This document shows positions 16,077 through 34,191 of a DNA stretch of 64,000 nucleotides, in pieces. Under the pieces are notes generated by a model. That model had not been told where the DNA came from. It searched no databases and was given only the letters and a program-made list of their open reading frames with translations. The position numbers were made by a program, and so were the translations under genes. Numbering within the stretch: position 1 is the first letter of the stretch; the number at the start of each line of letters is the position of its first letter. The stretch is from Vitreoscilla filiformis (GTDB lineage Bacteria; Pseudomonadota; Gammaproteobacteria; Burkholderiales; Burkholderiaceae_C). The stretch lies in assembly GCF_002222655.1 (NCBI RefSeq), contig NZ_CP022424.1, positions 218,641 through 282,640 of the forward strand, in the 5' to 3' direction.

Positions 16077-16212
16077 AGCGCATCGGAGGCTCCGACCGCC
16101 GCCTGGATGGCCCCGCCCGCATTGAGGATGGGGCACGTACACCACCTCATCGCGCTTGAGCCGCTGGGGCATGATGCGCCAAGCGAGTCACCGGTCAGTT
16201 CAGGGAGCCTCA

Positions 16213-17223
16213 ATGGAACAAATCAATGCCTCCGACTTAAAAACCATCCTGCATTCCAAACGCGCCAACCTCTATTACTTGGAGCACTGCCGGGTGCTGG
16301 TCAATGGCGGGCGGGTGGAGTACGTCACGGAACGTGCTCAACAGCAGCTTTACTGGAACATCCCCATCGCCAACACCACCACGGTGCTGCTGGGCACGGG
16401 CACTTCCATCACCCAAGCGGCGGTGCGCGAGCTTGCCAAGGCCGGGGTGATGCTGGGGTTTTGCGGCGGAGGTGGCACACCGCTGTTTGCCGCCACTGAA
16501 TTTGAAGTGGAGGTGGCCTGGTTCAGCCCGCAAAGCGAGTATCGCCCCACCGAGTACCTGCAACACTGGGTGCGGTTCTGGTTTGATGACGCACTGCGGC
16601 TGGAGGCCGCCAAGGCGTTTCAGCAAGCGCGGCTGGAGCGGCTGCGTCAGCACTGGGGCAGCAGCAAGGCGCTCAAAGAGCAAGGCTTTGCGCCTGACAT
16701 GGCGGCCCTGGCAGCTTGCGTGCGTGACAGTGCCGCCGCCGTGGCCCAGGTGCCCAGCAACACGGCTTTGCTCACCGAAGAAGCCCGCTTGACCAAGCAG
16801 CTCTACCGACTGGCGGCTCAAGCCACGCGCCACGGTGAGTTCACCCGTGCCAAGCGCGGCGAGAGTGTGGATGCGGCCAACCAGTTTTTGGATCACGGTA
16901 ATTACCTGGCCTACGGCTTGGGCGCCACCGCATGCTGGGTGTTGGGGCTGCCTCACGGCTTGGCCGTGCTGCACGGCAAAACCCGGCGGGGTGGCTTGGT
17001 GTTTGATGTGGCGGATTTGGTGAAGGATGCGCTGATCCTGCCGCAAGCCTTTGCGTCGGCGATGAAGGGGCATACCGAGCAGGAGTTCCGCCATGCTTGC
17101 ATTGAAGCCTTTGCACGCACCGAGGCGCTGGATTTCATGATCGACACACTCAAAGCCGTTGCCACTTCGCTCGGTCTGAAGGCACTGGGCGCCCAGGCTT
17201 CCCAGTCGGAGAACCTCGCATGA
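16213..17223 (+). CDS. cas1: Cas1, type I-F integrase
   Basis: 336 aa Cas1f. It has 'NTTTVLLGTGTSITQAAVRE' in the N-terminal beta domain and, in the helical domain, 'TRAKRGESVDAANQFLDHGN' (metal Glu region), 'GLPHGLAVLHG' (His) and 'FDVADLVKDA' (Asp). With the Cas2 domain of Cas2-3 it integrates new spacers. Start 16213 has GGGAG 5 nt upstream (16203-16207); an earlier in-frame ATG lacks one. The stop overlaps cas2-3 by ATGA. Confidence 0.95.
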   Translation: MEQINASDLKTILHSKRANLYYLEHCRVLVNGGRVEYVTERAQQQLYWNIPIANTTTVLLGTGTSITQAAVRELAKAGVMLGFCGGGGTPLFAATEFEVEVAWFSPQSEYRPTEYLQHWVRFWFDDALRLEAAKAFQQARLERLRQHWGSSKALKEQGFAPDMAALAACVRDSAAAVAQVPSNTALLTEEARLTKQLYRLAAQATRHGEFTRAKRGESVDAANQFLDHGNYLAYGLGATACWVLGLPHGLAVLHGKTRRGGLVFDVADLVKDALILPQAFASAMKGHTEQEFRHACIEAFARTEALDFMIDTLKAVATSLGLKALGAQASQSENLA

Positions 17224-20200
17224 ACATCTTGCTGGTGTCGGAGTGCGACAAACGGGCGCTGGTGCAAACCCGGCGCATCCTCGATCAATTTGCCGAGCGC
17301 CGAGGCGAGCGCACCTGGCAAACGCCCATCACCCAAGAGGGGCTGGACACCCTGCGTCGCTTGCTGCGCGCCAGTGCGCGCAAAAACACCGCCGTGGCTT
17401 GCCACTGGATACGCGGCCAAGATCACACCGAACTGCTATGGGTGGTCGGCGATAAAACCCGCTTCAACGCGCAAGGCGCGGTGCCCACCCACACCACCCG
17501 GCGCGACGTGTTGCGGGCGGGTGATGAAAACGATTGGCACAGCGGCGAAGACATCCACTTGCTGGCCGCCCTGGCCGCTCTGCTGCACGATTTGGGCAAG
17601 GCCAGTGCGGCGTTCCAAAGTCGGCTTCAAGACAGTTTGGCGGGCCACGGTGCCCACAGTGGGCGCAACCGCTACCGGCATGAGTGGGTCTCGCTGCGCT
17701 TGTTTCAGGCGTTTGTGGGGCAAGACGAGGATGCCGCTTGGCTAGCGCGGCTGGCCGACCCCACACCCGCCGATGTGGCAAGTTGGGCAGACGCCAAAAC
17801 CGGGCGTTTGCAGCGGGATGGTTTGGATGCCCCCGACGCCTGTGTGCCGCCTTTCCAGGCGCTGGCCCATGCGCCACTGGCGCAGGCGGTGGGTTGGTTG
17901 ATCCTGACGCATCACCGCTTGCCGGTGCTGCCTGCGCACCAAGACAACGGCGAACAAGCCTGGCTCGGCTGCCCCAGCTCGCGTTTTGGTGCGGCCAGCT
18001 TGCAGGCGGGTTTGCGCCAGGTTCAGGCGGATTGGAACGAGATCGTCCGTGCCGGCGGTGCTTCGGAGATTCAACCTTATTGGCACTTCCCGCAGGGTTT
18101 ACCGGTGGCGTTGCCGCACTGGCAGGCCCAAGCCAAGCGCTTGGCGCTGCGGCTGCAAGCCATGCTGGTGGCGCGACGGCAAGGTTCCCCCTCACCCCGG
18201 CCTTCTCCCCCAAAGGGAGAGGGAGAAATGCCTTCAAAGCCCCTCTCCCCTTGTGGGAGAGGGGTTGGGGAGAGGGGGAGCGCTTGGCTCGACGAACCTT
18301 ATGTGATGCACCTGAGCCGCTTGGCGCTGATGCTGGCCGATCACCACTATTCCAGCCTCAACCGTGAAGACGGCCACAGAGCCCGGGGGCGGGTGGACGT
18401 ACCAGAGGGCTGCACGCTGCTGGCCAACACCTACAAGGACAAGGTGCAGGGGCGCACATGGCCTAACCAGACGCTGGATGAACACCTCATCGGCGTGGCC
18501 CAGGGCAGCCGGCGTATCACCCATGCATTGCCCAGTTTGGCTGACAGCTTGCCGGGTTTGGTGAACCATAAACCGCTGCGCAAACGCAGCACCGAAGCAC
18601 GCTTTGCCTGGCAAAACAAGGCAGCCGATGCTGCGGCCAGCCAGCATGCCCAAGCCGCCGAGCATGGCGCGTTCATCGTCAACATGGCCAGCACAGGCAC
18701 GGGCAAAACCCTGGCCAACGCCCGCGTGATGAATGCCCTGGCCGACCCGGAGCGGGGCCTGCGCTGCGCCTTTGCGATGGGTTTGCGCACCCTCACGCTA
18801 CAAACCGGGCGGGCGTTTCAAACCCTGTTGTCTTTGGGGGAAGAACAACTCGCCATCCGCGTGGGTGGCCATGCCAGCCGGGCCTTGTTTGAGCACTTTG
18901 AAACCCGTGCCGAGGCCACGGGTTCAGCCTCTAACCAAGCCTTGTTGCTGGAAGAGGAGGAAGAAGGCTCGGTGGAATTTGCTGGCGATGCGGGCTTGGA
19001 TGAGCGCCACCCCGTGCTGGCACGCACGCTGCACGACCCTCTGGTGAAAAAACTGCTGGTGGCCCCGGTGCTGGTCTGCACGATTGACCACCTCACACCA
19101 GCGACCGAAAGCCAGCGCGGCGGGCGCCAGATCGCACCGATGTTGCGCCTCTTGAGCGGCGATCTGGTGCTGGATGAGCCCGACGACTTTGATTTGGCCG
19201 ACTTGCCCGCACTCACCCGCTTGGTGCATTGGGCGGGGCTGCTGGGCAGCCGGGTGCTGTTGTCTTCGGCCACGTTGGCGCCTGCGCTGGTGCAGGGTTT
19301 GTTTTTAGCCTACCGCGCTGGGCGCATGGCTTACCAGCGCCATCGGGGTGCGCGGCCCAGCGGCGCGGTCACGCCACCCGAAATTGCCTGCCTGTGGCTG
19401 GACGAGTTCAACCAACAGGCCAGCGCGTGCGCTACGCCCGAGGCTTTTCAGCAGCAGCATGAAGGCTTTGCCGCGAAGCGCCATGCGCGTTTGGCGCAGG
19501 AGGCGGCCACGCCCCGTCGGCGTTGCGCTTTGGTGGACGTGAGGCCACTGGCAAGCGCCAAAACGGATGCCGAACGCGCCAGCGCCTTGGCTGTGTTGCT
19601 GCAAACCCAGGCGCTGGCCCTGCACGAACTGCACGCTCAGCCCGATCCACAGAAGCCTGAGCGGCGGGTGAGTTTTGGGCTGATCCGCATGGCCAACATC
19701 GAGCCGCTGGTGCAGGTGGCGCGGGCGCTGTTTGCGCTGGCGCCACCGCCGGGGGTGCAGATTCATTTGTGCGTGTATCACTCGCAGTTTCCGCTGCTGC
19801 TGCGCTCCAACATCGAGCGGCGGTTGGATGCGGCACTCAACCGCCGGGATCCCGAGGCGGTGTTTGCGCTGGCGGACATCCGAACGCGGTTGGAGGCGCA
19901 CCCGCAGGCGGCGCAGCATCTGTTCATCGTACTGGGCTCCCCTGTGACGGAAGTGGGCCGCGATCACGATTACGACTGGGCCATCGTCGAGCCGTCTTCG
20001 ATGCGCTCGCTGATTCAGCTCGTGGGGCGGGTCAAGCGCCACCGGGTGGAGGTGTGCGGCAAGGCGGCCAATGTGCGGGTGCTGGATAGCAATTGGCGGC
20101 ATTTCTCAAAGCCCGGTGGGCCGGTGTTTTACCGGCCTGGGTTTGAAACCTCCACGGCGCAGCTCGCGCATTGTCAGTTACGGCACCTGTTGCGACCGGA

Positions 20201-20765
20201 AGAGTTTGGTGTGGTGGATGCGCGGCCGCGCATCGTGTGCCCCACGCCCTTGGAGCCCCACAAACAATGGGTGGATTTGGAGCACTGGCGCATGGCGCAG
20301 GCGATGCTGCCGCCTCAAACGCAAGTCAACTCCCCGGTGCCAGCGGCTGAAGCGGCGTGGTGGTGGTGGCATTTCCCCCCTGCCTCAGCCTTGATGACCG
20401 CCCTGCTACCGCAACACCAGCCCTTCCGTGATGACACCCAAAAGCGGGTCGATCTGTGCCTTCGCCCGACCGACGATGACCCCGAGCGCATCGAGTTGAC
20501 CGAGGTGGTGGATCTCAAAAAAGGCAGCGGCAAGCGCTACGTGTCAGCCCAAAACCGCTGCAAGATGTGGACGGATGAAAGCATTTTTTCCGCCCTTGGC
20601 ATCTGCGCTTGGGCCGAGCCGAGCTACGCCCAGGCGCTCGCCGAGTTGGCGCAAGCGATGGACATGCCCTTGCAGCGCTGCGCCGAGCGCTTTGGCACGG
20701 TGAGCTTGCCCGCCAGTGAACCGGGTTGGTGGTGGCATGCGGCGCTGGGGTTTGTGCGGCGTTGA
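17220..20765 (+). CDS. cas3: Cas2-Cas3 fusion, type I-F nuclease-helicase with adaptor domain
   Basis: 1181 aa. Residues 1-95 form the Cas2 domain (MNILLVSECDKRALVQTRRI). Next is an HD nuclease domain (LLHDLGKA with His123-Asp124, HEWVSLRLF, LTHHRLP). A superfamily 2 helicase follows: Walker A STGTGKT near residue 493, DEPDD near 650, LLSSATLA, and motif VI 'QLVGRVKRHR'. A C-terminal domain ends GWWWHAALGFVRR. Residues about 323-353, inside the HD region, are encoded by an inserted palindromic repeat that keeps the frame. The last 78 bases are duplicated downstream of vapC, where they would end FVRHK instead. It degrades DNA bound by the Csy complex and supplies Cas2 for adaptation. Confidence 0.95.
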   Translation: MNILLVSECDKRALVQTRRILDQFAERRGERTWQTPITQEGLDTLRRLLRASARKNTAVACHWIRGQDHTELLWVVGDKTRFNAQGAVPTHTTRRDVLRAGDENDWHSGEDIHLLAALAALLHDLGKASAAFQSRLQDSLAGHGAHSGRNRYRHEWVSLRLFQAFVGQDEDAAWLARLADPTPADVASWADAKTGRLQRDGLDAPDACVPPFQALAHAPLAQAVGWLILTHHRLPVLPAHQDNGEQAWLGCPSSRFGAASLQAGLRQVQADWNEIVRAGGASEIQPYWHFPQGLPVALPHWQAQAKRLALRLQAMLVARRQGSPSPRPSPPKGEGEMPSKPLSPCGRGVGERGSAWLDEPYVMHLSRLALMLADHHYSSLNREDGHRARGRVDVPEGCTLLANTYKDKVQGRTWPNQTLDEHLIGVAQGSRRITHALPSLADSLPGLVNHKPLRKRSTEARFAWQNKAADAAASQHAQAAEHGAFIVNMASTGTGKTLANARVMNALADPERGLRCAFAMGLRTLTLQTGRAFQTLLSLGEEQLAIRVGGHASRALFEHFETRAEATGSASNQALLLEEEEEGSVEFAGDAGLDERHPVLARTLHDPLVKKLLVAPVLVCTIDHLTPATESQRGGRQIAPMLRLLSGDLVLDEPDDFDLADLPALTRLVHWAGLLGSRVLLSSATLAPALVQGLFLAYRAGRMAYQRHRGARPSGAVTPPEIACLWLDEFNQQASACATPEAFQQQHEGFAAKRHARLAQEAATPRRRCALVDVRPLASAKTDAERASALAVLLQTQALALHELHAQPDPQKPERRVSFGLIRMANIEPLVQVARALFALAPPPGVQIHLCVYHSQFPLLLRSNIERRLDAALNRRDPEAVFALADIRTRLEAHPQAAQHLFIVLGSPVTEVGRDHDYDWAIVEPSSMRSLIQLVGRVKRHRVEVCGKAANVRVLDSNWRHFSKPGGPVFYRPGFETSTAQLAHCQLRHLLRPEEFGVVDARPRIVCPTPLEPHKQWVDLEHWRMAQAMLPPQTQVNSPVPAAEAAWWWWHFPPASALMTALLPQHQPFRDDTQKRVDLCLRPTDDDPERIELTEVVDLKKGSGKRYVSAQNRCKMWTDESIFSALGICAWAEPSYAQALAELAQAMDMPLQRCAERFGTVSLPASEPGWWWHAALGFVRR
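18187..18278 (+). repeat. Palindromic interspersed repeat, in-frame copy in cas3
   Basis: About 92 bp, closely matching the reverse complement of 4205-4297. It adds about 31 residues (SPSPRPSPPKGEGE, then SKPLSPCGRGVGERG) between ARRQG and WLDEP, within the HD domain. Flanking Cas3 sequence is continuous, so this reads as an in-frame insertion. Confidence 0.85.
20683..20760 (+). repeat. 78-bp direct repeat, copy 1 (3' end of cas3)
   Basis: Identical over 78 bases to 21513-21590, 830 bp away. It covers the last codons of cas3 before the stop and brackets the vapBC-like pair. Confidence 0.95.
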
Positions 20766-20834: not shown

Positions 20835-21086
20835 ATGGCCCAGGTGACGATTTACCTTGAAGACAGCCTGTTGCAGGTCGCCCGCGAGGCCGCCACGCGG
20901 CAAAGCGTGTCGCTCAGCCAGTGGTTTTCGCAGTTCGCAGCGCAGGAGAAAAAGCGCCAGGCGCAGGATTGGGGCCTCTTTTTCAGCCAGTTGGATGCCA
21001 TCAGCGCTCCACAAAACGATCCGTTCCCAAACCCCGATGCGTTGCGTCGCCACGAAGTGGCCGATCTGCCACGGGAAGCGTGGTAA
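20835..21086 (+). CDS. Ribbon-helix-helix antitoxin, VapB/CopG-like
   Basis: 83 aa. The N-terminus (MAQVTIYLEDSLLQVAREAA, then SVSLSQWFSQFAA) has the strand-helix-helix layout of a DNA-binding ribbon-helix-helix protein; the C-terminus (residues 45-83) is acidic and Pro-rich, suited to wrapping the toxin. ATG 20835 has GGAG at 20824-20827. It is 5 nt upstream of the PIN toxin gene, and an inverted-repeat operator precedes it. The exact antitoxin family is not certain. Confidence 0.82.
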   Translation: MAQVTIYLEDSLLQVAREAATRQSVSLSQWFSQFAAQEKKRQAQDWGLFFSQLDAISAPQNDPFPNPDALRRHEVADLPREAW

Positions 21087-21091
21087 CTCAC

Positions 21092-21490
21092 ATGGCGTAC
21101 TTGTTGGACACCAACGCGTTGATCTACCTGTTCAAGAACCAGGGCAACGTGCGCCAACGTGTGGCCTTGCGGCAAGACCATGAAATTTGCATGTGTACGC
21201 CTGTCCTGTGGGAGTTGAAGACAGGCGCACTCAAATCCAGCCAACCGGAAGCAGCGCTGCAAAAACTCACGTTTGTACAAAGTCGGTTCAAGCTGCTGAC
21301 GTTTGACGAAGCCTGCGCCGATCAGGCCGCCCGTGTGCGCGCCTCGCTGGAGCTGCAAGGCACACCCATCGGCCCCATTGATACGCTCATCGCCGGCACC
21401 GCCCTGGCCCACGAACTGACACTGGTCACGCGCAACCTTCGGGAGTTCCAGCGGGTGCCTGGGCTGGCCGTGGAGGATTGGTACAGCTAA
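21092..21490 (+). CDS. vapC: PIN-domain ribonuclease toxin, VapC family
   Basis: 132 aa. All four acidic active-site regions are visible: LLDTNALIY (Asp6), ELKTG (Glu), PIDTLIAGTAL (Asp) and a terminal LVTRNLREFQRV. VapC toxins cut tRNA or rRNA when the antitoxin is lost. It lies inside the cas operon between cas2-3 and csy1, so loss of the locus could be penalised by post-segregational killing; that role is inference. Confidence 0.88.
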   Translation: MAYLLDTNALIYLFKNQGNVRQRVALRQDHEICMCTPVLWELKTGALKSSQPEAALQKLTFVQSRFKLLTFDEACADQAARVRASLELQGTPIGPIDTLIAGTALAHELTLVTRNLREFQRVPGLAVEDWYS

Positions 21491-21512: not shown

Positions 21513-21590
21513 CCGAGCGCTTTGGCACGGTGAGCTTGCCCGCCAGTGAACCGGGTTGGTGGTGGCATGCGGCGCTGGGGTTTGTGCGGC
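21513..21590 (+). repeat. 78-bp direct repeat, copy 2 (displaced cas3 end)
   Basis: Perfect copy of 20683-20760. In the cas3 frame it would continue ACAAGTGA, giving the ending FVRHK and a stop. It is a non-functional remnant or the ancestral cas3 terminus. Confidence 0.95.
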
Positions 21591-21617: not shown

Positions 21618-21668
21618 CCCCTCACCCCGACCCTCTCCCCTTGGGGGAGAGGGGTTGGGGTGAGGGGA
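21618..21668 (+). repeat. Short form of the palindromic interspersed repeat
   Basis: 51 bp, CCCCTCACCCC ... GGGGTGAGGGG, with an inner CTCTCCCC/GGGGAGAG stem. Related to the outer arms of the copies in cas3 and ccmG-ccmH but without the centre. Its right arm (GAGGGGA) directly precedes an ATG. Confidence 0.8.
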
Positions 21669-21869
21669 ATGCGTCGCCAAACACACCGACAGTTGAAGCT
21701 TGACGCCCTGACCAACACCACAGCCGAAGCTGCTCGCCGCTGCGGTGTGACGCAACCGCGCATGAATGACTTGCTGCGCGATCGCATCAACCGCTTCTCG
21801 CTGGATGCGCTTGTGAACATGGCTGCGGCTTGTGGGCAACGGGTGCGGGTGGAGCTAGCGCCTGCGTGA
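21669..21869 (+). pseudogene. HigA/XRE-type antitoxin fragment
   Basis: 66 codons from ATG 21669. 'AARRCGVTQPRMNDLLRDRI' and 'FSLDALVNMAAACGQRVRVE' match the C-terminal part of HigA-like XRE antitoxins (HTH with GVTQPR recognition helix). The usual N-terminal 20-30 residues are absent and replaced by the palindromic repeat, which happens to supply a GAGGGG ribosome site. No toxin partner is adjacent, so I regard it as a remnant, possibly still translated. Confidence 0.65.
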
Positions 21870-21920
21870 AGCGCTCTGCTCGCACTCTCAAGGGTCACGA
21901 CATTGATCCCCACAGAAGTG

Positions 21921-21947
21921 AAAAAGCCGGCGCGAGGCCGGCTTTTT
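21921..21947 (-). terminator. Intrinsic terminator ending the mini-CRISPR transcript
   Basis: Perfect 11-bp arms AAAAAGCCGGC / GCCGGCTTTTT around a 5-nt loop. Symmetric, so it could act on both strands. On the minus strand it immediately follows, and partly overlaps, the second degenerate repeat of the mini-CRISPR; on the plus strand it would end the XRE fragment transcript. Confidence 0.85.
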
Positions 21948-22022
21948 GCTGCCTATCCGGCAGTGAAGGTGTCGAACCACACGAAGCGTGCAATTTTCTG
22001 AGCTGCTTGCCAGCAGTTCAGG
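21941..22022 (-). ncRNA. Degenerate mini-CRISPR encoding a crRNA-like regulator (CreA/CreR-like)
   Basis: Read on the minus strand it has the order pseudo-repeat 1 (22022-21995), pseudo-spacer (21994-21969, 26 nt), pseudo-repeat 2 (21968-21941), then terminator. Pseudo-repeat 1 ends GCAGCTCAGAAA, one base from the array repeat ending (GCAGCTTAGAAA), and keeps a 5-bp stem by a compensating pair change (CTGCT-GGCA-AGCAG). Pseudo-repeat 2 has TTCACTGCCGGATAGGCAGC, one mismatch to the array repeat over 20 bases, but a decayed 3' end. So the Cas6f hairpin is kept in both and the crRNA 5' handle only in the first, exactly what a single processed guide needs. The guide's first 11 bases match 22074-22084 beside a CC PAM. 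It resembles CreA antitoxin RNAs or CreR cas-repressing RNAs; which one is open. Confidence 0.78.
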
Positions 22023-22055
22023 GATGAGCTTACACTGCTCTCACTGGTAAGCAAT

Positions 22056-22092
22056 TTGGTAGCTAAACACGCTAAGCGTGCAATGGTTAAAA
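22056..22092 (+). promoter_or_regulatory. Promoter upstream of csy1 overlapped by the mini-CRISPR protospacer
   Basis: Two overlapping sigma70-like readings: TTGGTA (22056-22061) with 17 bp to TGCAAT (22079-22084), or TAAACA (22064-22069) with 17 bp to TTAAAA (22087-22092). The protospacer (22058-22084) and PAM (GG at 22085-22086, CC on the other strand) cover this core, so a bound Csy complex would block it. The 13-bp palindrome CACGCT-A-AGCGTG (22068-22080) lies inside and could also bind a protein. No better promoter was found nearer csy1. Confidence 0.6.
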
Positions 22093-22217
22093 AATTGTCT
22101 GCCGAAGAAAAAGGACATCGGTGATGCTGCAACACCACCGATGCCAGAGCAGCAACGCCAAGGCTCAGACGCCAGGCACCCACCCACAGGGGCTGATGCG
22201 GGATACGGAGGATGCGT

Positions 22218-22256
22218 ATGTGGACTGACTTTCACATGCTCAGAAGAGATTCCTGA
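22218..22256 (+). CDS. 12-codon mini-ORF with tandem AGA codons (possible CreT element)
   Basis: ATG 22218 stands 6 nt after GGAGG (22207-22211), one of the stronger ribosome sites in the region. It encodes MWTDFHMLRRDS and stops at 22254-22256. The two Arg codons are consecutive AGA (22242-22247), codons that appear scarce in the CGN-dominated neighbours. Known CreT RNAs act by a strong ribosome site plus tandem rare codons that sequester a tRNA. Similarity is of design only; chance occurrence is possible. An overlapping 34-codon frame (22124-22228) is a competing reading. Confidence 0.3.
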   Translation: MWTDFHMLRRDS

Positions 22257-22283
22257 CACCTGAAGCTGTTTCACAGCACACAC

Positions 22284-22303
22284 CCCCGAGCATTGCCTCG
22301 GGG
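22284..22303 (+). terminator. Hairpin before csy1, weak terminator or attenuator
   Basis: CCCCGAG-CATTGC-CTCGGGG, 7-bp GC-rich stem followed by CATTCT rather than a clean U tract. It could end a creT-like RNA while letting some transcription pass into csy1, 40 bp downstream. Confidence 0.45.
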
Positions 22304-22343
22304 CATTCTAAAAGCGGCCATCGCGTCGCAAAAAGGACTTTTC

Positions 22344-23633
22344 ATGCCGAACCTTTCAGGGAGGTCGGCGGCGATTCGATCCGTCATCACGGCGTTCTTG
22401 CTGGAACGCCGCGATGGCAAGCTCGACAAGCTGCCCGCCGATGACCCCAAACGCGCCGAGCTGCTGGCGCAATTTCAGCCGGCGGTTTGGCTGGAAGACG
22501 CCGCCCGGCGAGTGAGCCAGATCCAGGCCGTCACCCATTCGCTCAAACCCATTCACCCCGATGCCAAGGGCAGCAACCTTTATTGCCCGCCGCCTCGCTT
22601 GGCCGCGCAAACCGTGGTCGGCAGCCATTGTCTCGGTGAATCCTTCGCCACGGATGTGGTCGGCAACGCCGCTGCCCTGGATGTTTATAAATTCCTCAAG
22701 CTGGAGTTTGAGGGCCAAAGCTTGTTGGCCCGGCTGCTGGCCGGTGATGAGGATGCGCTCGCCGCCCTGAGCGACGATCCCACCCAGGCGCACCACTGGG
22801 CGCAAGCTTTCACCGGCTTGGTGGCGCCGCGTGGCCGCGTCGCCAGCCACACTTTGGCCAAGCAGCTTTACTGGCTGGCCGGTGAAGCCCCGCTGCGCGA
22901 TGCGGATTTCCACCTGCTGGCCCCGCTTTACCCCAGCTCGCTGGTGCAACGGATGTATGAGCAGTTGCAGGAGGATCGCTTCAGCGAAGCCGCCAAGGAA
23001 GCGCGCCAAGCCAAAAAAGCCGGCGAGTTTCACGAACGCCCAACGCACGATTACCCCCATTTGGCGGTGCAAAAGCTGGGTGGCACCAAGCCGCAGAACA
23101 TCAGCCAACTCAACAGCGAGCGGCTGGGGCAGAACTTCTTGCTGGCCTCGCAGCCACCACAGTGGCACAGCCGGGATGTCCTGCCGCTGCTGGACACCGA
23201 CAGCTTGTTCAAGCGCTTTGGCCGCCGACCCGAGGTGCGCCAAACGGTGAAGGCCCTGCACACGTTTTTGGCCGCCAACCCGCCGAAGAACGTGGGCACC
23301 CGCGACACCCGCGATGACTTGGCCGATGGGCTGATCGACGAGTTCTTGCTCTTTGGCGCCGCGCTGCGCGAGCTGCCACCCGGCTGGAGCCAAGCGCCGG
23401 AATGCAAACTGCCCGATGAGCAAAAAGTGTGGGTGGACAGCGGCGCTTTCTCCCCTGAAAACCTGCCACCGAACTGGGCCGACGAGCTGGCCGCTCGCTA
23501 CGCCTTGTGGCTCAACGCCGCGCTGAGCACCACCGATGCCATGACGATGGGCGACCCCGAGCACGCCCACTGGCGCAACGATCTGCGCGACGCCCTGGCC
23601 GCCTACGACTGGGAGCTGCGCCATGCTGCATGA
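22344..23633 (+). CDS. csy1: Csy1 (Cas8f), large subunit of the type I-F surveillance complex
   Basis: 429 aa. The family motif GGTKPQNISQLNSER is present near residues 249-263, with 'GSNLYCPPP' before it and the C-terminal 'WADELAARYALWLN'. Csy1 with Csy2 holds the crRNA 5' handle and reads the CC PAM. ATG 22344 follows AAAAAGGA (22330-22337) by 6 nt; the longer TTG-started frame is rejected. It is separated from cas2-3 by 1.58 kb of accessory DNA, unusual for a I-F operon. Confidence 0.95.
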   Translation: MPNLSGRSAAIRSVITAFLLERRDGKLDKLPADDPKRAELLAQFQPAVWLEDAARRVSQIQAVTHSLKPIHPDAKGSNLYCPPPRLAAQTVVGSHCLGESFATDVVGNAAALDVYKFLKLEFEGQSLLARLLAGDEDALAALSDDPTQAHHWAQAFTGLVAPRGRVASHTLAKQLYWLAGEAPLRDADFHLLAPLYPSSLVQRMYEQLQEDRFSEAAKEARQAKKAGEFHERPTHDYPHLAVQKLGGTKPQNISQLNSERLGQNFLLASQPPQWHSRDVLPLLDTDSLFKRFGRRPEVRQTVKALHTFLAANPPKNVGTRDTRDDLADGLIDEFLLFGAALRELPPGWSQAPECKLPDEQKVWVDSGAFSPENLPPNWADELAARYALWLNAALSTTDAMTMGDPEHAHWRNDLRDALAAYDWELRHAA

Positions 23634-24687
23634 CATGCCTGAAATCAACGGCTTGCTGGTGCTGCCGTGCTTGCGGGTGCAAAACGCCAACGCCATTTCC
23701 AGCCCGCTGACCTGGGGTTTCCCATCCATCACGGCGTTCACGGGCTTCATGCACGCGCTGGAGCGCAAGCTGGGCGCTGACAGCCCGCTCAACTTCAACG
23801 CGATTGGGGTGATCTGCCATGCGTTTGAGCCGCAAACCACCGAGGGCGGTTTCACCCGCGCCTTTCGGCTGACGCGCAACCCGGTGAACGCCGATGGCAG
23901 CTCAGCCGCACTGGTGGAAGAAGGCCGCGCCCATCTGGACATCACCTTGGTGCTGGGGTTTTCAAGTGACACCCTGGCCGCCGCCGATGAAACCACCCGC
24001 CAGCAAACCGCCCAGCGTGTGGCCGATGCCGTGGCCGGCATGCGCCTGGCCGGTGGCAGCGTGATGCCCGCGCTGCCCTTGGCCGGTGGCAGCTCACGCC
24101 AGCGCCGGCCCGAGATGCTGCCCTGGCCGCTGCACTACCAAGCCGAAAAGGCCGATCAAGCCTGGCGCCGCCTGCGCCAGCGCTGGTTGCCCGGTTTTGC
24201 CTTGGTGGCACGGGATGACTTGTTGACCGCTCACTTGGCCGAGCTGCAAACCCAAAACCCCAGCGCCACGGTGCTGGACGCATGGCTGGATGCCTCGCGC
24301 CTCAACCATCGGGCGGTGCGGGTGAACGCACCCGATACACCTGAACGGGTGGAATGGCAGCGCGATGCGCGGCCCGGCTGGATCGTGCCGATTCCGGTGG
24401 GTTACGCGGCGCTGTCTGAGCTGCACGCGCCGGGCTCGGTGGCAGGGGCGCGAGATCGGGAAACGCCGTTCCGGTTTGTGGAGAGCGTTTACAGCTTGGG
24501 CCAGTGGATCGGCCCGCATCGGCTGGGCAGCGCGCAAGACCTGCTCTGGTGGAGTGACTTTGACGCCGACGCCGGCCTCTACCGCTGCCGCAACGCTTAC
24601 CGGCCGCCCGCATCTGCGCCAATCCCCTCACCGTCTTCGGCTGAAGACCCCCTGCAAGACCCCGATTCCCCGTTCGCTTACGTCTAA
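23623..24687 (+). CDS. csy2: Csy2 (Cas5f), crRNA 5'-handle binding subunit
   Basis: 354 aa RAMP protein with the family block [18 protein letters not shown], '[14 protein letters not shown]' and 'GEFxxxF'-like positions, ending in an Asp/Pro-rich tail. It starts inside csy1 (11-bp overlap) at ATG 23623 with GGGAG 7 nt upstream; ATG 23635 is an alternative. Forms a heterodimer with Csy1. Confidence 0.93.
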
Positions 24688-24706
24688 ACCCTCAGGAGAG
24701 ACCTTC

Positions 24707-25747
24707 ATGGCTACCAAAAAAGACACCTCCGCTGCGCTGGCCACCGCTTCGGTGTTGGCGTTTGAGCGCAAGCTCGATCCGTCTGACGCGCTGTTTCATG
24801 CCGGCATCTGGGCCGAACGCGATCAACCCAAGGCTTGGGTGCCGGTGGGGGTGAACGCCAAATCGGTGCGCGGCACGATTTCCAACCGGCTCAAAACCAA
24901 AGACCAAGACCCGATCAAGCTGGATGCCGCGATTCAAAACCCCAACCTGCAAACCGTCGATGTGGCCGCCCTGCCCGCTGAAGCGGACACGCTGCGGGTG
25001 AGTTTCACGCTGCGGGTGTTGGGCGGCGCGGGCACGCCTTCAGCCTGCAACAGTGCGGACTACCAAGCCAAGCTGCTGCAAACCGTGGCCGGCTATGTGA
25101 GCGCCAACGGCTTTACCGAGCTGGCCAGCCGCTACGCGCACAACCTCGCCAACGGGCGGTTCTTGTGGCGCAACCGGGTAGGCGCGGAAGCCGTGGAAGT
25201 GCGCGTGGCTCATCTGCAAGACGGCCAGGCTGCCAAAACCTGGGTGTTTGATGCGCTGGCACTCTCGCTGCGCGAGTTCAACAGCCCGGCGGTGGCGGAG
25301 TTGGCCGCGCTGCTGGCTGAAGGTCTGGGCGGCAACCGCCATGTGCTGCTGCAAGTGACGGCCTTTGTGCGCCAAGGCTTTGGGCAAGAGGTGTTCCCTT
25401 CGCAAGAGCTGATCTTGGATCGGGGACGCGGGGACAAGAGCAAGACGCTTTACACCGTGAACAAGGTGGCCGGCCTGCACTCTCAAAAAGTGGGCAACGC
25501 GCTGCGCACGATTGACACCTGGTATCCCGAAGCCGACACCCTGAACCTGGGGCCGATTGCGGTGGAGCCCTATGGCTCGGTGACGACGCTGGGCCGCGCC
25601 TGCCGCCCACCCGCAACCAAGCGGGATTTTTACAACCTGCTGGACAACTGGCTGCTCAAAGACCAAGTGCCCGCGCTGGAACAGCAGCACTTTGTGATGG
25701 CCACGCTCATCCGAGGTGGTGTGTTTGGCGACGCAGGCAAGGACTGA
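24707..25747 (+). CDS. csy3: Csy3 (Cas7f), backbone subunit of the surveillance complex
   Basis: 346 aa, six copies expected per complex along the spacer, kinking the guide at every sixth nucleotide. Visible family segments: '[19 protein letters not shown]', 'NRFLWRN'-type '[17 protein letters not shown]', 'FPSQELILD' and 'TLGRACRPP'. ATG 24707 has GGAG upstream. Confidence 0.95.
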
Positions 25748-25751
25748 GGCC

Positions 25752-26345
25752 ATGTGTACGTACTACCTGGATTTGGTGCTGGAGCCTGACCCGGAGTTTG
25801 GCGCGCCGATGTTGATGGCGGCGCTCTACGCCAAGCTGCACCGGGCACTGGTGGCGGTGGAGTCCACCACGCCGCTGGGCGCAGTGGGGGTGAGTTTTCC
25901 GCTGCATGACGATGCCCGGCCCACGCTAGGCACCTGCATGCGCTTGCACGGCAGTGAAGCGGCGCTGGCCGCGCTGATGAGCACGCCTTGGCTGCGCGGT
26001 GTGCGGGATCATCTGGCGCAAGCACAACCGACACCGCAACCCGTGCCGCTGGAGAAATTGCAGGGCTACCGGGTGGTGAGCCGGGTGCAGGTTCACAGCA
26101 GCCCGGAGCGTCAACGCCGTCGGCTGATGCGCCGTCAGGGCGTGGATGAGCGGGAGGCGGTGCAGCGCATTCCCAACGATGTGGTGCAGCGCTGCGATCT
26201 GCCCTTTGTGTCACTGGCCAGCGCGAGCACGGGGCAGGTATTCAAGCTGTTCGTCCGGCATGGCACGCTACAAGCGCAGGCGGTGGAGGGTCGGTTCAAT
26301 GCCTATGGACTGAGCCAGCAGGGTGCTACCGTGCCTTGGTTCTAA
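25752..26345 (+). CDS. csy4: Csy4 (Cas6f), CRISPR RNA endoribonuclease
   Basis: 197 aa. N-terminal ferredoxin-like fold with His30 (AKLHRALV) in the place of the catalytic histidine of known Csy4, an Arg-rich helix near residues 117-126 (ERQRRRLMRR) that grips the repeat hairpin, and the C-terminal block FNAYGLSQQGATVPWF. It begins 4 nt after csy3. It should cut both the array repeats and the hairpins of the mini-CRISPR. Confidence 0.94.
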   Translation: MCTYYLDLVLEPDPEFGAPMLMAALYAKLHRALVAVESTTPLGAVGVSFPLHDDARPTLGTCMRLHGSEAALAALMSTPWLRGVRDHLAQAQPTPQPVPLEKLQGYRVVSRVQVHSSPERQRRRLMRRQGVDEREAVQRIPNDVVQRCDLPFVSLASASTGQVFKLFVRHGTLQAQAVEGRFNAYGLSQQGATVPWF

Positions 26346-26482: not shown

Positions 26483-29400
26483 ATTCACTGCCGGGTAGGC
26501 AGCTTAGAAAAGCACAGCGGTCGGTTCGGGCGATGGTGTGGGATTCACTGCCGGGTAGGCAGCTTAGAAAAACACCAACACCAACGCCGACACCAACACC
26601 GAATTCACTGCCGGGTAGGCAGCTTAGAAATCGCGGATCGAGGACGGCGAGGACATTTGACAATTCACTGCCGGGTAGGCAGCTTAGAAAATCAAGGCTG
26701 AAATCCTGAACGAGGGCCGCGCATTCACTGCCGGGTAGGCAGCTTAGAAACGTTGGCCAGGCCAGCGTGTGCCGCAGCGTCCATTCACTGCCGGGTAGGC
26801 AGCTTAGAAAAAGAAAGTTAGCAAGTTTGCGCTCTGGACTGCATTCACTGCCGGGTAGGCAGCTTAGAAATTGAGCAGTCTGACACCTGGGCACTCGCCG
26901 ACATTCACTGCCGGGTAGGCAGCTTAGAAACAACTGAGCCCAGAGCTATTGCCGGGCCGGGAATTCACTGCCGGGTAGGCAGCTTAGAAAGCCCCGCAGA
27001 CGCCACCAGCGCCAGCGCTGGCATTCACTGCCGGGTAGGCAGCTTAGAAATTGAGGGTATCCCGTTCCTTGCGGCGCTTGTTATTCACTGCCGGGTAGGC
27101 AGCTTAGAAATTGGAGCCGAGCCGTGTCGGCCTTGGTGCCGCATTCACTGCCGGGTAGGCAGCTTAGAAAATGACCCGCTTGACCCGCAATCGCGCCAAA
27201 GCATTCACTGCCGGGTAGGCAGCTTAGAAATTGGCGCAAGGCAGCCAAGCTGGCCGGCGTCAATTCACTGCCGGGTAGGCAGCTTAGAAATTCGGCGGAA
27301 TGCCATCTGGCATCCTGCTGTTATTCACTGCCGGGTAGGCAGCTTAGAAAATCAAAAGAATCAGCGGTGGGCTTGCCCGTTTATTCACTGCCGGGTAGGC
27401 AGCTTAGAAAGAAAGAAAATCGTTGACGTAGAGCGGAACCCAATTCACTGCCGGGTAGGCAGCTTAGAAAAACGCGCCACCACGGCGCCCACGATCACCG
27501 AGATTCACTGCCGGGTAGGCAGCTTAGAAATCTCCAGGGTGTGGCCGGGTGCGTCACACCAAATTCACTGCCGGGTAGGCAGCTTAGAAAAGCACAGGCG
27601 TCGCTACTGAGGCTCATGGCCGATTCACTGCCGGGTAGGCAGCTTAGAAAAGGCTGGCTTCCAGATCCGTGACGTGCTTGTTATTCACTGCCGGGTAGGC
27701 AGCTTAGAAAATCCGCGAATTCATCAAGAACTACTGATCCACATTCACTGCCGGGTAGGCAGCTTAGAAAACTCAGTCACGTCCACTCAGTCACGTCCAC
27801 TCATTCACTGCCGGGTAGGCAGCTTAGAAACCGAAGCGATGGCGTGCCAAGAGATGGGGGAGGATTCACTGCCGGGTAGGCAGCTTAGAAATGATTGAAG
27901 CCCGCCACTGCTGGTATCGCTACATTCACTGCCGGGTAGGCAGCTTAGAAATTGCGCACGGCACAGCCGGATTGCGCGCGCTGATTCACTGCCGGGTAGG
28001 CAGCTTAGAAAGTACTCATTTGGTGGTGGTGTTGGTTGGCAAAATTCACTGCCGGGTAGGCAGCTTAGAAAAAGTACACGCTCACCGAAGAGCAAAAGCA
28101 AACATTCACTGCCGGGTAGGCAGCTTAGAAATTGCCGAGCATGACGGCAAATTTCAACGTGCTATTCACTGCCGGGTAGGCAGCTTAGAAATGGTGTTGT
28201 ATGGCCCGCTCGGCACCGGGAAAATTCACTGCCGGGTAGGCAGCTTAGAAAACTGGCCGCGTCGGATTCAACGGTGCCTGCCAATTCACTGCCGGGTAGG
28301 CAGCTTAGAAAGCTGAGCATCAGCCAGTGCGTGGCGCAGCCGCATTCACTGCCGGGTAGGCAGCTTAGAAACGAATTCGTTGGCTTGCCAAGAGATGGGG
28401 GAGATTCACTGCCGGGTAGGCAGCTTAGAAAAGTCGCTCCGCCAAAAAATCGCGCAGGGCTGCATTCACTGCCGGGTAGGCAGCTTAGAAATGGCTCCGA
28501 GTGTGGCCCGTCGTGTGGCCGGGATTCACTGCCGGGTAGGCAGCTTAGAAATTGGGGTACACGCCGGCGCCCAGGCCGTACAAATTCACTGCCGGGTAGG
28601 CAGCTTAGAAAGTGTGGCCGGGTCTGGGCTGAGGCTCACAGAGATTCACTGCCGGGTAGGCAGCTTAGAAAGGTCAGTGCGCCCCTGACGTGGGCGAGCG
28701 CATATTCACTGCCGGGTAGGCAGCTTAGAAATGAATTCACGACTTTTTTGCTTGGCTATTGCAATTCACTGCCGGGTAGGCAGCTTAGAAATGCCCGGGC
28801 ATCTTGGAAGTCGCCGGCTCTTGATTCACTGCCGGGTAGGCAGCTTAGAAAACACCAGCCCGCACGAACCAGAGTTGATGCTGATTCACTGCCGGGTAGG
28901 CAGCTTAGAAACGGGGCTGAAAGCGCGTTTTTCGGTGCAAGAGATTCACTGCCGGGTAGGCAGCTTAGAAAACTCATGTCCACTCATGTCCACTCATGTC
29001 CGATATTCACTGCCGGGTAGGCAGCTTAGAAATCTAGCGTCCGGCGTTGTGCTGTTGTTGCTGCATTCACTGCCGGGTAGGCAGCTTAGAAACCGCAGCA
29101 CCTCGCGAGACAGTTCGGGGGGCTCAATTCACTGCCGGGTAGGCAGCTTAGAAAGCGGGCAGCTTCGGCCTCGTCGGGACCGGCGGATTCACTGCCGGGT
29201 AGGCAGCTTAGAAAAAATATTTGGGGACGGCGTTTAGAGTTGCTGGATTCACTGCCGGGTAGGCAGCTTAGAAAAAAATGGTCGGGCAGGTGCTCCAGCC
29301 GTGTGAATTCACTGCCGGGTAGGCAGCTTAGAAAGGGTTGGTTTGCGTTGAGGAATTCAGCCGGGATATTCACTGCCGGGTAGGCAGCTTAGAAACTGCG

Positions 29401-32400
29401 ATGGCTCTTGGCTCAGTCGGACGAGCTATTCACTGCCGGGTAGGCAGCTTAGAAAAGCACCAGCGCAATGATGCCGGCCATCCCGACATTCACTGCCGGG
29501 TAGGCAGCTTAGAAATCGCCGGGCAGCGCGATGTCAGCAGCGAGCGGATTCACTGCCGGGTAGGCAGCTTAGAAAAGAGCTCGCCCGACCGAGCCCCGGG
29601 TCATTGCATTCACTGCCGGGTAGGCAGCTTAGAAAATTAGCCATTTCGACAATAACAGGGAATGCGCATTCACTGCCGGGTAGGCAGCTTAGAAACGATC
29701 GGGCATGAGTGGACATGAGTGGACATGATTCACTGCCGGGTAGGCAGCTTAGAAAAAGCCCGCCGCCGCAGCATGCAACCCCAGGCGATTCACTGCCGGG
29801 TAGGCAGCTTAGAAAAAACGCACTCAGAGGGCGGGCTTCCCCTGGTTATTCACTGCCGGGTAGGCAGCTTAGAAAAGAAACACCACCAGACGACGACTGC
29901 GCTAATGATTCACTGCCGGGTAGGCAGCTTAGAAAGTTAACGTGCAGCGTTCGATTCACGGTTTCTGATTCACTGCCGGGTAGGCAGCTTAGAAATCGGG
30001 CATCCCGTGGGGAGCGGGGGGGGGTTGATTCACTGCCGGGTAGGCAGCTTAGAAAACATTGGCACGTCTTGGCCTGGCTCACGCCGGATTCACTGCCGGG
30101 TAGGCAGCTTAGAAAGAGTGGACACGCCCGAGTGGACGTGACGCGGCATTCACTGCCGGGTAGGCAGCTTAGAAACTTTTCAGCCACGGCCGCGAGGAAT
30201 CGGTACAATTCACTGCCGGGTAGGCAGCTTAGAAAATCAGATCGCGCACCACCACGGTATCGCCCGCATTCACTGCCGGGTAGGCAGCTTAGAAAAAAAT
30301 AGAGCCCTGGCAGCGCTTTTTGCTTTGATTCACTGCCGGGTAGGCAGCTTAGAAAAAGTCGGCGGCAGAGGCTCACACGCGGCAAATATTCACTGCCGGG
30401 TAGGCAGCTTAGAAATGGGCATCATCGGCACGTTGGCCAGCCGTACCATTCACTGCCGGGTAGGCAGCTTAGAAAGTAACGCGGCTGCAAAAAGAAAACC
30501 AACCATCATTCACTGCCGGGTAGGCAGCTTAGAAACGATGGAACGGGGCATCTTGGGATATTGTGCTATTCACTGCCGGGTAGGCAGCTTAGAAAATGTC
30601 CGCTTCAGGTGACGTCAAAGATGTGCAATTCACTGCCGGGTAGGCAGCTTAGAAAATCGAGGTGATGAAGAGCCATGGGCTGGAGCCATTCACTGCCGGG
30701 TAGGCAGCTTAGAAAACGCACCAGGGCGGATCACACGAGCCAAAAAAATTCACTGCCGGGTAGGCAGCTTAGAAACGACAAACTCGCGCAGCTTGGCCGG
30801 TGTGGCCATTCACTGCCGGGTAGGCAGCTTAGAAATGGGGGAATCGCACGTGTTCCGCACGTCGATTATTCACTGCCGGGTAGGCAGCTTAGAAACAAGA
30901 AGAAACATTGAAAAGCGATGCGGAGCATATTCACTGCCGGGTAGGCAGCTTAGAAATGTTGCAAGGAGATCATGCTGCACCCCCTTTGATTCACTGCCGG
31001 GTAGGCAGCTTAGAAAACCTTGTTGCCACAACCGCCGACGCCGTTGCCATTCACTGCCGGGTAGGCAGCTTAGAAAGCTTTAAAGATTGGCTATGTTGTT
31101 GTTTTTGTATTCACTGCCGGGTAGGCAGCTTAGAAATCAGTTGAGGTTGCAATCGGTGCTGGGGAGAGCATTCACTGCCGGGTAGGCAGCTTAGAAAAGG
31201 ATGACGCAGGCCGGGCGTGACAGGGGTCTATTCACTGCCGGGTAGGCAGCTTAGAAAGGTGAAAGTCACCGAAGGCAATCCCGGACTCCATTCACTGCCG
31301 GGTAGGCAGCTTAGAAAACATAAGAAGCGCAACAAAAACAACAACATAGATTCACTGCCGGGTAGGCAGCTTAGAAAGCGAGACGCAGGCGTTGGAGGCG
31401 CGGCTGAGGATTCACTGCCGGGTAGGCAGCTTAGAAATTTTGGCGAGCATCATCAATCAGCCGTTGGGCATTCACTGCCGGGTAGGCAGCTTAGAAACGG
31501 CTGCGGGGAATGTTGGAGCGGTACGAGATATTCACTGCCGGGTAGGCAGCTTAGAAATGCTGCTGCTGTTGTCTCGCTGCTCGCCGTGCATTCACTGCCG
31601 GGTAGGCAGCTTAGAAACGAGTGGACGTGATTGCCCGAGTGGACATGAAATTCACTGCCGGGTAGGCAGCTTAGAAAGTCCGCTCCACATGCTGCCCCCC
31701 TACCCCCCCAATTCACTGCCGGGTAGGCAGCTTAGAAAAGTCCAGCGGTGCCAGCGGGCAGGTGGCCCGGATTCACTGCCGGGTAGGCAGCTTAGAAATC
31801 AAAAGAGGGCGACGCCGTTTGAATCTACAAATTCACTGCCGGGTAGGCAGCTTAGAAAGAGCTGACCAGCCGATCCACTGCTGACATTACATTCACTGCC
31901 GGGTAGGCAGCTTAGAAAATCAGCGCCGCCAGGCCCATGCGGCAGGCATCATTCACTGCCGGGTAGGCAGCTTAGAAAATGACCACAGGCACCAGTTCCG
32001 GGCGGGTTTGCATTCACTGCCGGGTAGGCAGCTTAGAAATTGGTGATGCCGAAAATGGCCGCAGCAATGGCATTCACTGCCGGGTAGGCAGCTTAGAAAA
32101 ATCCCCGTACAAACGGGGCATCGTTGCATTAATTCACTGCCGGGTAGGCAGCTTAGAAAATATACACCGACCGGTTCAACGTCAAACGTTAATTCACTGC
32201 CGGGTAGGCAGCTTAGAAAACGATCGATTTGGCGTCGTCCTTGGCCAGCTCATTCACTGCCGGGTAGGCAGCTTAGAAAAGGATGGGGGATGGTTCCGCG
32301 GTGACAAAAGCATTCACTGCCGGGTAGGCAGCTTAGAAAGTCAGCACGGGCTGGCGCGGCTTGGGGTCAGCATTCACTGCCGGGTAGGCAGCTTAGAAAC

Positions 32401-34191
32401 AGCGCTTCGCGCACTGCTTGCAAGCTCGGGCATTCACTGCCGGGTAGGCAGCTTAGAAAACAGAAGGCAACGCCCGGCAAGCCCTGAAGCAATTCACTGC
32501 CGGGTAGGCAGCTTAGAAATTGGCGACGCGATCCAACAGGTATGGCTGCACATTCACTGCCGGGTAGGCAGCTTAGAAAAGCGAGCCGGGCGTGTTTGTC
32601 GTCGGCACCGATATTCACTGCCGGGTAGGCAGCTTAGAAAAGGCAAACGCGACGCGGTATTCGACGCGCCAGATTCACTGCCGGGTAGGCAGCTTAGAAA
32701 ACTCGCCAGGGCACCGTGATGCCCTGGGCGGCATTCACTGCCGGGTAGGCAGCTTAGAAAGTACTCGCGTGCGATCTGTGGCACCTTCATGCATTCACTG
32801 CCGGGTAGGCAGCTTAGAAAAGCATTGCGTGAGCATCACTGAGCCGAGACTGCATTCACTGCCGGGTAGGCAGCTTAGAAAACTCATAACCGCATTGCAA
32901 AGGATACGGTCATATTCACTGCCGGGTAGGCAGCTTAGAAATGATCATTTCGCGCACCGCGTTGCGAGCGACGATTCACTGCCGGGTAGGCAGCTTAGAA
33001 AATCGCGGCGAGGTGGTGCGGCGGGTACTTCATATTCACTGCCGGGTAGGCAGCTTAGAAAAGGGTGGCAAAACTCCGAAGGCGCCAAGCTGGATTCACT
33101 GCCGGGTAGGCAGCTTAGAAAGCCAAAACGCTTGCGCACCTCGGCGGCCAGCTATTCACTGCCGGGTAGGCAGCTTAGAAAACAGATCGCACGCGAGTAC
33201 GGTGTCTGCCGCAATTCACTGCCGGGTAGGCAGCTTAGAAATTGAAGCTGGCGGCGCGGCTCTTTGCTCCCGGATTCACTGCCGGGTAGGCAGCTTAGAA
33301 AGCTGGCCAGCGCTCGCAGTTGCATCCTGCCCGATTCACTGCCGGGTAGGCAGCTTAGAAACCAAAGTGGACGGATCATTACATTCACTGCCGGGTAGGC
33401 AGCTTAGAAAAAACAGCGGCAGAGCAGCACTCAACCGAGTAGATTCACTGCCGGGTAGGCAGCTTAGAAAAATGCGGCGGAACCGGTGGCGGCGCCGGAA
33501 GTATTCACTGCCGGGTAGGCAGCTTAGAAAAGCCGGGTGCGCAGCATGAGGCGCACGATCAGATTCACTGCCGGGTAGGCAGCTTAGAAATGAAGGGGCA
33601 GGAATACACCATCGCTGGCCGCATTCACTGCCGGGTAGGCAGCTTAGAAAACCAGACGACGACTGCGCTAATGCATATTCCGATTCACTGCCGGGTAGGC
33701 AGCTTAGAAAGTTTAATCTGGGTTTGCCGTCCGGCTGTCCGTATTCACTGCCGGGTAGGCAGCTTAGAAACGAGCGCGTGATAACTCGTGTGCCGAGTTG
33801 TGATTCACTGCCGGGTAGGCAGCTTAGAAACGTGCAAGTCCAGCAGGGCGCCTTGGCGCAACATTCACTGCCGGGTAGGCAGCTTAGAAAAGAATCCATC
33901 CCGGCAAGCGAGCCAGTCAGCAATTCACTGCCGGGTAGGCAGCTTAGAAAAGCGTCGGGGCCAGCCCCATCAGATCAATCCAATTCACTGCCGGGTAGGC
34001 AGCTTAGAAAAGTAGCCGCGAGATTTGCAGCCCGTTCAGGTTATTCACTGCCGGGTAGGCAGCTTAGAAACACTCGTTCAGAAGGCCCTTCATTTCGTCC
34101 CACATTAACTGCCGGGTAGGCAGCTTAGAAAATGTTCGCCAAACTGAAGCTCTGCGCCATTGCATTCACTGCCGGGTAGGCAGCTCAGAAA
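26483..34191 (+). CRISPR. Type I-F CRISPR array, 129 repeats and 128 spacers
   Basis: 28-bp repeats beginning ATTCACTGCC and ending GGCAGCTTAGAAA, with a CTGCC/GGCAG stem, alternate with spacers that are nearly all 32 nt (some 33 or 34). One spacer (33362-33382) is only 21 nt. Repeats are essentially invariant except the last two: 34104-34131 (TTAACT for TTCACT) and 34164-34191 (CTCAGAAA for CTTAGAAA), marking the leader-distal old end. Leader and cas genes are on the left, so new spacers enter at 26483. Such a long array implies long-term adaptation. The many frames running through it are meaningless. Confidence 0.98.

Follow-up and report, generated by a model that had tools for sequence, protein, structure and literature searches.

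Type I-F CreTA, a CRISPR-regulated (type VIII) toxin-antitoxin, has been described in Acinetobacter strains WCHA45, LoGeW2-3, and ANC3789 (PMC10097628). In WCHA45 the CreT promoter starts upstream of the guide target, as predicted here too, the Shine-Dalgarno (SD) sequence and mini-ORF are enough for toxicity when placed under a tac promoter, and a single synonymous change at codon 2, 3, or 5 is reported to abolish toxicity, no other codon being named in the available part of that account; creT of ANC3789 is not deleterious to AYE cells (PMC10097628). Haloarchaeal CreTA belongs to type I-B, and its CreT carries AGA AGA in H. hispanica and AUA AUA in H. hubeiense (PMC8501985). CreR, a mini-CRISPR with a partial match ahead of cas genes, is listed for types I-B, I-E, and V-A in one account (PMC13131331) and for "Type I and Type V-A" in another (PMC12737573).

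The Vitreoscilla filiformis locus shares with Acinetobacter I-F CreTA its position in the cas3-csy1 gap, a psiR1-psiS-psiR2 element divergent from creT, a CC PAM, a partial guide match, an SD-led mini-ORF, and a start-codon stem, which is predicted in the present case (PMC10097628). LoGeW2-3 creTA, used here as a yardstick, has the same order, and its 33-bp mini-ORF aligns without gaps with those of 11 other relatives, whereas the V. filiformis mini-ORF is 39 bp with a different loop; tandem rare codons are not discussed in the available part of the Acinetobacter account (PMC10097628). The likeness to haloarchaeal CreTA includes an efficient start, two consecutive rare codons, a downstream stem-loop, and a PAM-side seed in CreA repression, but the present locus is I-F and bacterial, has a start-codon hairpin, and places its rare pair farther from the start (PMC8501985). 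It resembles the Citrobacter rodentium I-E CreTA in occupying the gap from cas3 to the first effector gene with creA on the opposite strand, but C. rodentium CreT has a 96-bp ORF without rare codons, and its target is in a predicted UP element (PMC12055562). The mini-CRISPR is CreR-like, but here a toxin-like mini-ORF separates the promoter from csy1, and I-F is not named in the available parts of the CreR accounts (PMC13131331, PMC12737573). Titles, abstracts, and selected passages of openly accessible papers contain no recognizable report of an I-F CreR or a rare-codon I-F CreT, although some of the loci described here may be among the additional homologs that PMC10097628 gives in its supplement. 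The element is probably a type I-F CreTA module whose CreT carries rare codons and whose promoter likely also serves csy1-4.

The cas3-csy1 gap and its mini-CRISPR

The window, which is the whole 64,000-nucleotide stretch of DNA analyzed, contains a I-F locus ordered cas1, cas2-3, a short gene with a PIN-domain gene, an HTH_37 gene, a mini-CRISPR stretch, csy1-4, and a CRISPR array.

16156-17223: cas1
17220-20765: cas2-3
20835-21490: PIN-domain gene (Pfam) and a short preceding gene without a Pfam hit
21669-21869: HTH_37 gene (Pfam)
22344..23633, plus strand: csy1 (PF09611)
23623..26345, plus strand: csy2, csy3, and csy4
26483..34070, plus strand: CRISPR array, with 127 exact repeats between these ends

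The array (26483-34070) is very long, with 115 of the 126 intervals read being 32 nt, and the window has 127 exact repeat copies and two with one mismatch on the plus strand, 129 in all. A 78-nt segment of the cas3 tail (20683-20760) is copied with 100% identity at 21513-21590, beyond the PIN-domain gene pair, as would result if insertion of the pair had duplicated the end of cas3. This pair (20835-21490) is likely a second, protein-type toxin-antitoxin that shares the gap with the RNA module, and the HTH_37 gene is solitary; the gap of relative L003 likewise has two short genes, HicA/HicB-like by eye only. Inverted G+C repeats (CCCTCTCCCC...) are present at 18188-18277 (within the cas3 frame) and at 21618-21667 (in the gap), and are presumably REP-like.

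21921..21947, either strand: hairpin flanked by A5 and T5, terminator-like by eye in both directions (sequence and fold)
21941..21968, minus strand: psi-repeat 2 of creA, 21/28 to the array repeat, with a 5-bp hairpin like that of the array repeat
21969..21994, minus strand: pseudo-spacer (guide), 26 nt
21995..22022, minus strand: psi-repeat 1 of creA, 17/28 to the array repeat, with hairpin CTGCT-GGCA-AGCAG and 3' handle CTCAGAAA
22058..22084, minus strand: guide target (protospacer-like)
22085..22086, minus strand: CC, the I-F PAM

The guide is enclosed by a two-repeat, creA-like mini-CRISPR in the cas3-csy1 gap, and as in CreTA, degenerate repeats flank a spacer-like sequence inside a cas locus, with psiS partly complementary to a PAM-flanked site at a predicted creT promoter. 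The 5-bp central stem is kept in both psi-repeats on folding, and psi-repeat 2 scores 25.7 bits against Rfam CRISPR-DR4, under the gathering score of 35. An ordinary member of the canonical I-F array is rejected, as the repeats match at only 17/28 and 21/28 and the spacer is 26 nt, versus near-identical 28-nt repeats and 32-nt spacers. The hairpin at 21921..21947 is absent from the terminator-scan output, and would by its sequence terminate creA and cas3 read-through as well.

An earlier note on this DNA had described an unbroken match at bases 1 to 11 between guide (21994 to 21968) and target (22084 to 22058), both on the minus strand, beside a CC PAM at 22086-22085, with mismatches at 12, 14, 18, 21, 23, and 24, and all of this is found exactly as described. 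Its count of 21 matches in 27 is also reproduced, but the spacer is 26 nt (21994-21969) and position 27 belongs to psi-repeat 2, so that the fit is 20/26. Its view that a degenerate mini-CRISPR guide fits a CC-flanked site with the six-base mismatch rhythm of I-F is borne out, the same rhythm recurring across 27 loci. The match is real and beyond chance: among 11,400 CC-preceded sites on both window strands a seed run of at least 8 is found at the target only, shuffled guides compared with the 349-nt gap (21995-22343) give 20/26 with CC in 1 of 20,000 trials and never an 11-base seed, and the 126 array spacers reach at most 15/26 with a seed of 6 or fewer, versus 20/26 and 11 for the guide. 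Chance is ruled out by these three comparisons. The prediction is that the guide brings in the Csy complex, which would repress without cleaving.

22007..22036, plus strand: predicted PcreT, with TTGCCA (22007-22012), 18-nt spacing, and TACACT (22031-22036)

PcreT is the sole sigma-70-like site in 21860-22400 (shuffle mean, 0.2) and is directed to csy1. The earlier placement of the target over the only recognizable promoter before csy1 thus stands as regards the lone promoter, but the target is ∼15 to 41 nt downstream of its predicted start and not on the −35 or −10. Nor is the target simply on a csy-side promoter, as had been proposed, since before csy1 comes a CreT-like, SD-led mini-ORF that has a tandem pair of rare codons and is followed by a 3' hairpin. 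Promoter scoring finds nothing like PcreT between mini-ORF and csy1 in the window, and csy autorepression may therefore accompany toxin control; PcreT probably also feeds csy1-4, to judge from the sequence.

Guide/target pairs at other csy1 loci

The stretch upstream of csy1 was compared in 78 loci, window included, from genome contigs and plasmids. The plasmid loci are 10 of 16 plasmid matches (H1, H2, H4-H7, H9-H11, and H13); L043 and L046, the second halves of split csy1 genes, are left out (L048 and L049 being kept), as are L007 and L001, which are the window itself. Four further places considered had no locus. A strict finder requiring the handle, CC, and at least 9 of 10 seed bases (positions 1 to 5 and 7 to 11, with position 6 ignored) returns one guide/target pair in each of 27 loci, window included, and none in 51, the latter including the minus-strand loci L010 and L012 when read in csy1 orientation. 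Applied to shuffled loci it returns a pair in 9 of 1,560, and on the control (other) strand in 3 of 78; 27/78 is probably a lower bound because modules such as L037 and L075 are missed. The gaps of L044 and L080 have two repeat-like hairpins without a strict pair, and L080 has a weaker pair. Viral contigs, scanned by pattern, yielded no relative of the window Csy1.

The 27 loci have 26 different seeds, only L062 and L064 sharing one, and a guide matches another locus in just 10 of 2,079 comparisons, so each guide changes along with its target. Mismatch counts at positions 1 to 20 (n = 27) are 0, 0, 0, 0, 0, 19, 1, 2, 0, 1, 2, 23, 1, 10, 4, 7, 5, 17, 14, and 16, with the low values at 1 to 5 and 7 to 11 partly imposed by the finder. 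There are peaks at 6, 12, and 18 (19, 23, and 17 of 27), few mismatches at 13, 15, and 17 (1, 4, and 5 of 27), and many from 18 on; the finder ignored position 6 and left 12 to 20 unscored, so that it did not impose the high count at 12, the good match at 13, 15, and 17, or the increase from 18 on. The type I-F Csy complex is known to flip out every sixth base, and the mismatch rhythm in these sequences agrees with this. The window guide matches its target at position 6, unlike 19 of the 27 loci.

The position of the predicted start relative to the target is varied. By consensus scores, which are not mapped starts, it is 34 to 40 nt past the PAM in 13 of 27 loci, such that the target adjoins the −35, but ∼40 nt before the PAM in the window, L002, L019, and L070, and variable in the other ten. 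Read-through into csy1 is proposed because no promoter is predicted between mini-ORF and csy1 in the window, but promoter scores past the mini-ORF equal or exceed those before it in L002, L006, and L019, which argues against read-through as a general rule.

The candidate creT mini-ORF and its relatives

22114..22145, plus strand: 14-pair hairpin in the creT leader (listed on the minus strand by the terminator scan)
22207..22211, plus strand: Shine-Dalgarno GGAGG
22218..22256, plus strand: candidate creT mini-ORF, 39 bases, ATG TGG ACT GAC TTT CAC ATG CTC AGA AGA GAT TCC TGA
22284..22303, plus strand: G+C hairpin CCCCGAG-CATTGC-CTCGGGG with a weak T tail, CATTCT (sequence and fold)

The candidate creT has the sequence features of tRNA-sequestering CreT, an efficient start and a tandem pair of rare codons, with AGA AGA in frame (22242-22247) after GGAGG, and its start codon is in a predicted AUGUG/CACAU stem with one extra codon. 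The combination of GGAGG, start, and tandem rare pair occurs once on the two window strands, here, and not at all in 400 kb strand-bases of a chromosome sample. AGA is used at 1.67 per 1,000 codons, the fourth rarest after CTA, TTA, and ATA (118 sampled genes, 53,854 codons), and tRNA-Arg(UCU), with anticodon TCT, is encoded by one of 57 tRNA genes (genome search, anticodons read). The downstream hairpin (22284..22303), absent from the terminator-scan output, is a candidate leaky terminator or CreT 3' stem-loop.

An SD-led mini-ORF 74 to 145 nt past the PAM is present in 13 of the 27 pair loci (the window, L002, L004, L006, L008, L009, L019, L036, L052, L069, L070, L073, and L076), with that of the window at 133 nt. 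The 12 relatives' mini-ORFs align gap-free, with AGA, AGG, ATA, TTA, or CTA at codon 8 in 11 and at codon 9 in 11, and a rare codon elsewhere only once, at codon 6; this codon set and the codon window were picked after the first pairs had been seen. Both codons are rare in 10 of the 12 (L008 and L073 having a single one), and the ten pairs are AGA AGA (four), ATA ATA (two), TTA TTA (two), AGA AGG (one), and ATA AGA (one). Pair codons are among the four rarest of 61 in 23 of 26 cases, window included, although these locus ranks are rough, being drawn from 502 to 1,448 codons per locus in any open frame of at least 150 codons on that strand. TTA is common at the Acinetobacter locus, and the pair there is AGA AGG. 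Two mini-ORFs found later, in L037 (TTA TTA) and L075 (AGA AGA), lack a strict pair and were read by eye, and the TTA TTA variants among the relatives (L036, L069, and L037) differ from the AGA and AUA pairs of haloarchaeal CreT (PMC8501985). A stop precedes the rare pair in L076, and none follows within two codons of it in L004 and L069, the latter lacking one to the end of the scanned stretch.

In the 12 relatives a stem joining the start codon with codon 5, as in WCHA45, is present with covariation: codon 1 plus one base pairs with codon 5 plus one base in 93.8% of cells, and the covariation score is 0.515 versus 0.299, with 0 of 500 shuffles reaching the pairing or covariation value and every slid version exceeded too. 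Two of five measures, pairs changed on both sides and pair types, are within the shuffles, and a fourth hairpin pair is broken in 3 of 12 relatives. In a 10-row creT-leader alignment (A2) the consensus structure is the start-codon stem only; the 5' and 3' leader hairpins seen by eye, including those like 22114..22145 in other mini-ORF loci, are not confirmed on it, perhaps because the alignment is gappy.

A 51-position covariance model built from the 12 relatives' mini-ORFs without the window, and run over 74 sources, has as its best match after the 12 training rows the window itself (22202-22253; 17.5 bits), with an E value of 0.92 over 428,460 bases and of 0.0034 for the cas3-csy1 gap alone, followed by L084 (13.6 bits) and L088 (12.8 bits). 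Training rows score at least 32.7 bits, matching by construction, and the window is the lowest of the mini-ORF set. Judged by this score, the window mini-ORF is a divergent member of the family and its most divergent one, with one extra codon and a different loop.

Nine pair loci (L003, L015, L021, L022, L056, L062, L064, L083, and L088) are instead CreR-like, with the estimated csy1 start 31 to 107 nt past the target and no rare-codon mini-ORF in frame, the one rare pair of L083 being behind a stop. L020 is close to L019 and has no recognizable mini-ORF, and L079 and L084 have longer leaders between target and csy1. In L051 the target-side promoter reads into a hydrophobic ORF of ∼54 codons, which is not a rare-codon mini-ORF and possibly codes for another kind of CRISPR-regulated product, and L057 has a short ORF between target and csy1 that ends at the csy1 start. 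On a Csy1 tree of 73 of the 78 rows (L068, L086, L088, L048, and L049, with fewer than 330 residues, being left out), toxin-bearing loci and pair loci without such a mini-ORF are separated by 5 changes versus a shuffle mean of 9.1, with 47 unlabelled rows not counted. Vreelandella venusta, which is toxin-free, nests there among toxin-bearing relatives, and V. olivaria is toxin-bearing.

Proposed control of creT and csy1-4

In the proposed module, leftward transcription would yield creA RNA, which Csy4 would cut and Csy1-4 would take up, and the guide would direct the Csy complex to the CC-flanked site at the start of the predicted creT transcript, keeping creT off. Because the guide fits its target over an 11-base seed but has mismatches farther on, binding without effective cleavage would be possible, and bound Csy would block transcription from PcreT. 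If released, creT RNA, with its strong SD, predicted start-codon hairpin, and in-frame AGA AGA, would probably stall ribosomes and occupy the single tRNA-Arg(UCU). The codon changes published for WCHA45 do not support the tRNA step; since single changes would leave one rare codon, the WCHA45 test does not settle it. Some PcreT transcripts probably continue into csy1-4, because the scan found no other good promoter ahead of csy1 and there is a terminator-like hairpin upstream, and Csy loss would then raise both csy expression and toxin.

The element fits CreTA better than plain CreR autorepression because a CreT-like mini-ORF is downstream of the target. That the guide only tunes Csy through the csy promoter, with the mini-ORF irrelevant or decayed, is unlikely: the lack of a promoter of like score from mini-ORF to csy1 in the window and the 9 of 27 pair loci with a target near csy1 and no in-frame rare-codon mini-ORF would accord with it, but the window has an SD, a predicted start-codon stem, and a tandem rare pair at toxin-family spacing (133 nt from the PAM), and its mini-ORF is matched by the covariance model. 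Plain CreR is therefore rejected for the window on account of the toxin-like mini-ORF between target and csy1, although the promoter may still serve csy1. Complete loss of creT function from a module in which creA and target still match is improbable, as the window retains an SD, an open frame, a rare pair, and a predicted stem; its model score is nevertheless the lowest of the mini-ORF set, and decay is visible elsewhere (L020 and L076).

The succession of a tandem-rare-codon mini-ORF, a G+C hairpin, and csy1 also suggests a leader-peptide attenuator, in which slow ribosomes at AGA AGA would set read-through of the hairpin and the guide would add promoter control. This is improbable to a similar degree, given that the WCHA45 SD and mini-ORF under a tac promoter sufficed for toxicity (PMC10097628) and that L004 and L069 are without a nearby stop. 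Least credible of all is that guide and target resemble each other as two operators of a transcription factor, for which the palindrome CACGCTAAGCGTG in the target, recurring in part within the pseudo-spacer, and the adjacent HTH_37 gene (21669-21869) might be invoked; the similarity extends past the palindrome to position 26, exactly between the psi-repeats, the target is beside CC, and the same arrangement occurs with other sequences in 26 other loci. An operator as sole cause is rejected on this recurrence and the psi-repeat framing.

A broader reading is a serious possibility, though somewhat short of probable: a widespread I-F family of codon-swappable RNA toxins would occupy the csy leader, with one guide-controlled promoter driving both the toxin and the csy genes. 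Under the same tentative reading the scaffold would consist of an SD, a start-codon hairpin, and codons 8 and 9 carrying host-rare AGA/AGG, ATA, or TTA, and the Csy-loaded guide that silences these toxins would have free bases 6, 12, and 18. If so, the cell may first rebuild Csy and be arrested if unable to, and sister loci without the toxin would retain autorepression only.

If the CreTA reading of the V. filiformis element is correct, loss of CRISPR would harm the cell, as the likely RNA toxin would no longer be silent. CRISPR-addiction modules would then occur in I-F well past the named Acinetobacter strains (PMC10097628), for example in Vreelandella and Marinobacterium, with a searchable signature of a target seed with free positions 6, 12, and 18, an SD, a start-codon stem, and a rare pair. 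Depletion of a tRNA by a bacterial I-F CreT, a point left open in the available part of the Acinetobacter work (PMC10097628), would become testable, and the occupation of the same slot by toxin-bearing (V. olivaria) and toxin-free (V. venusta) forms offers a natural experiment on the possible interconversion of CreTA and CreR.
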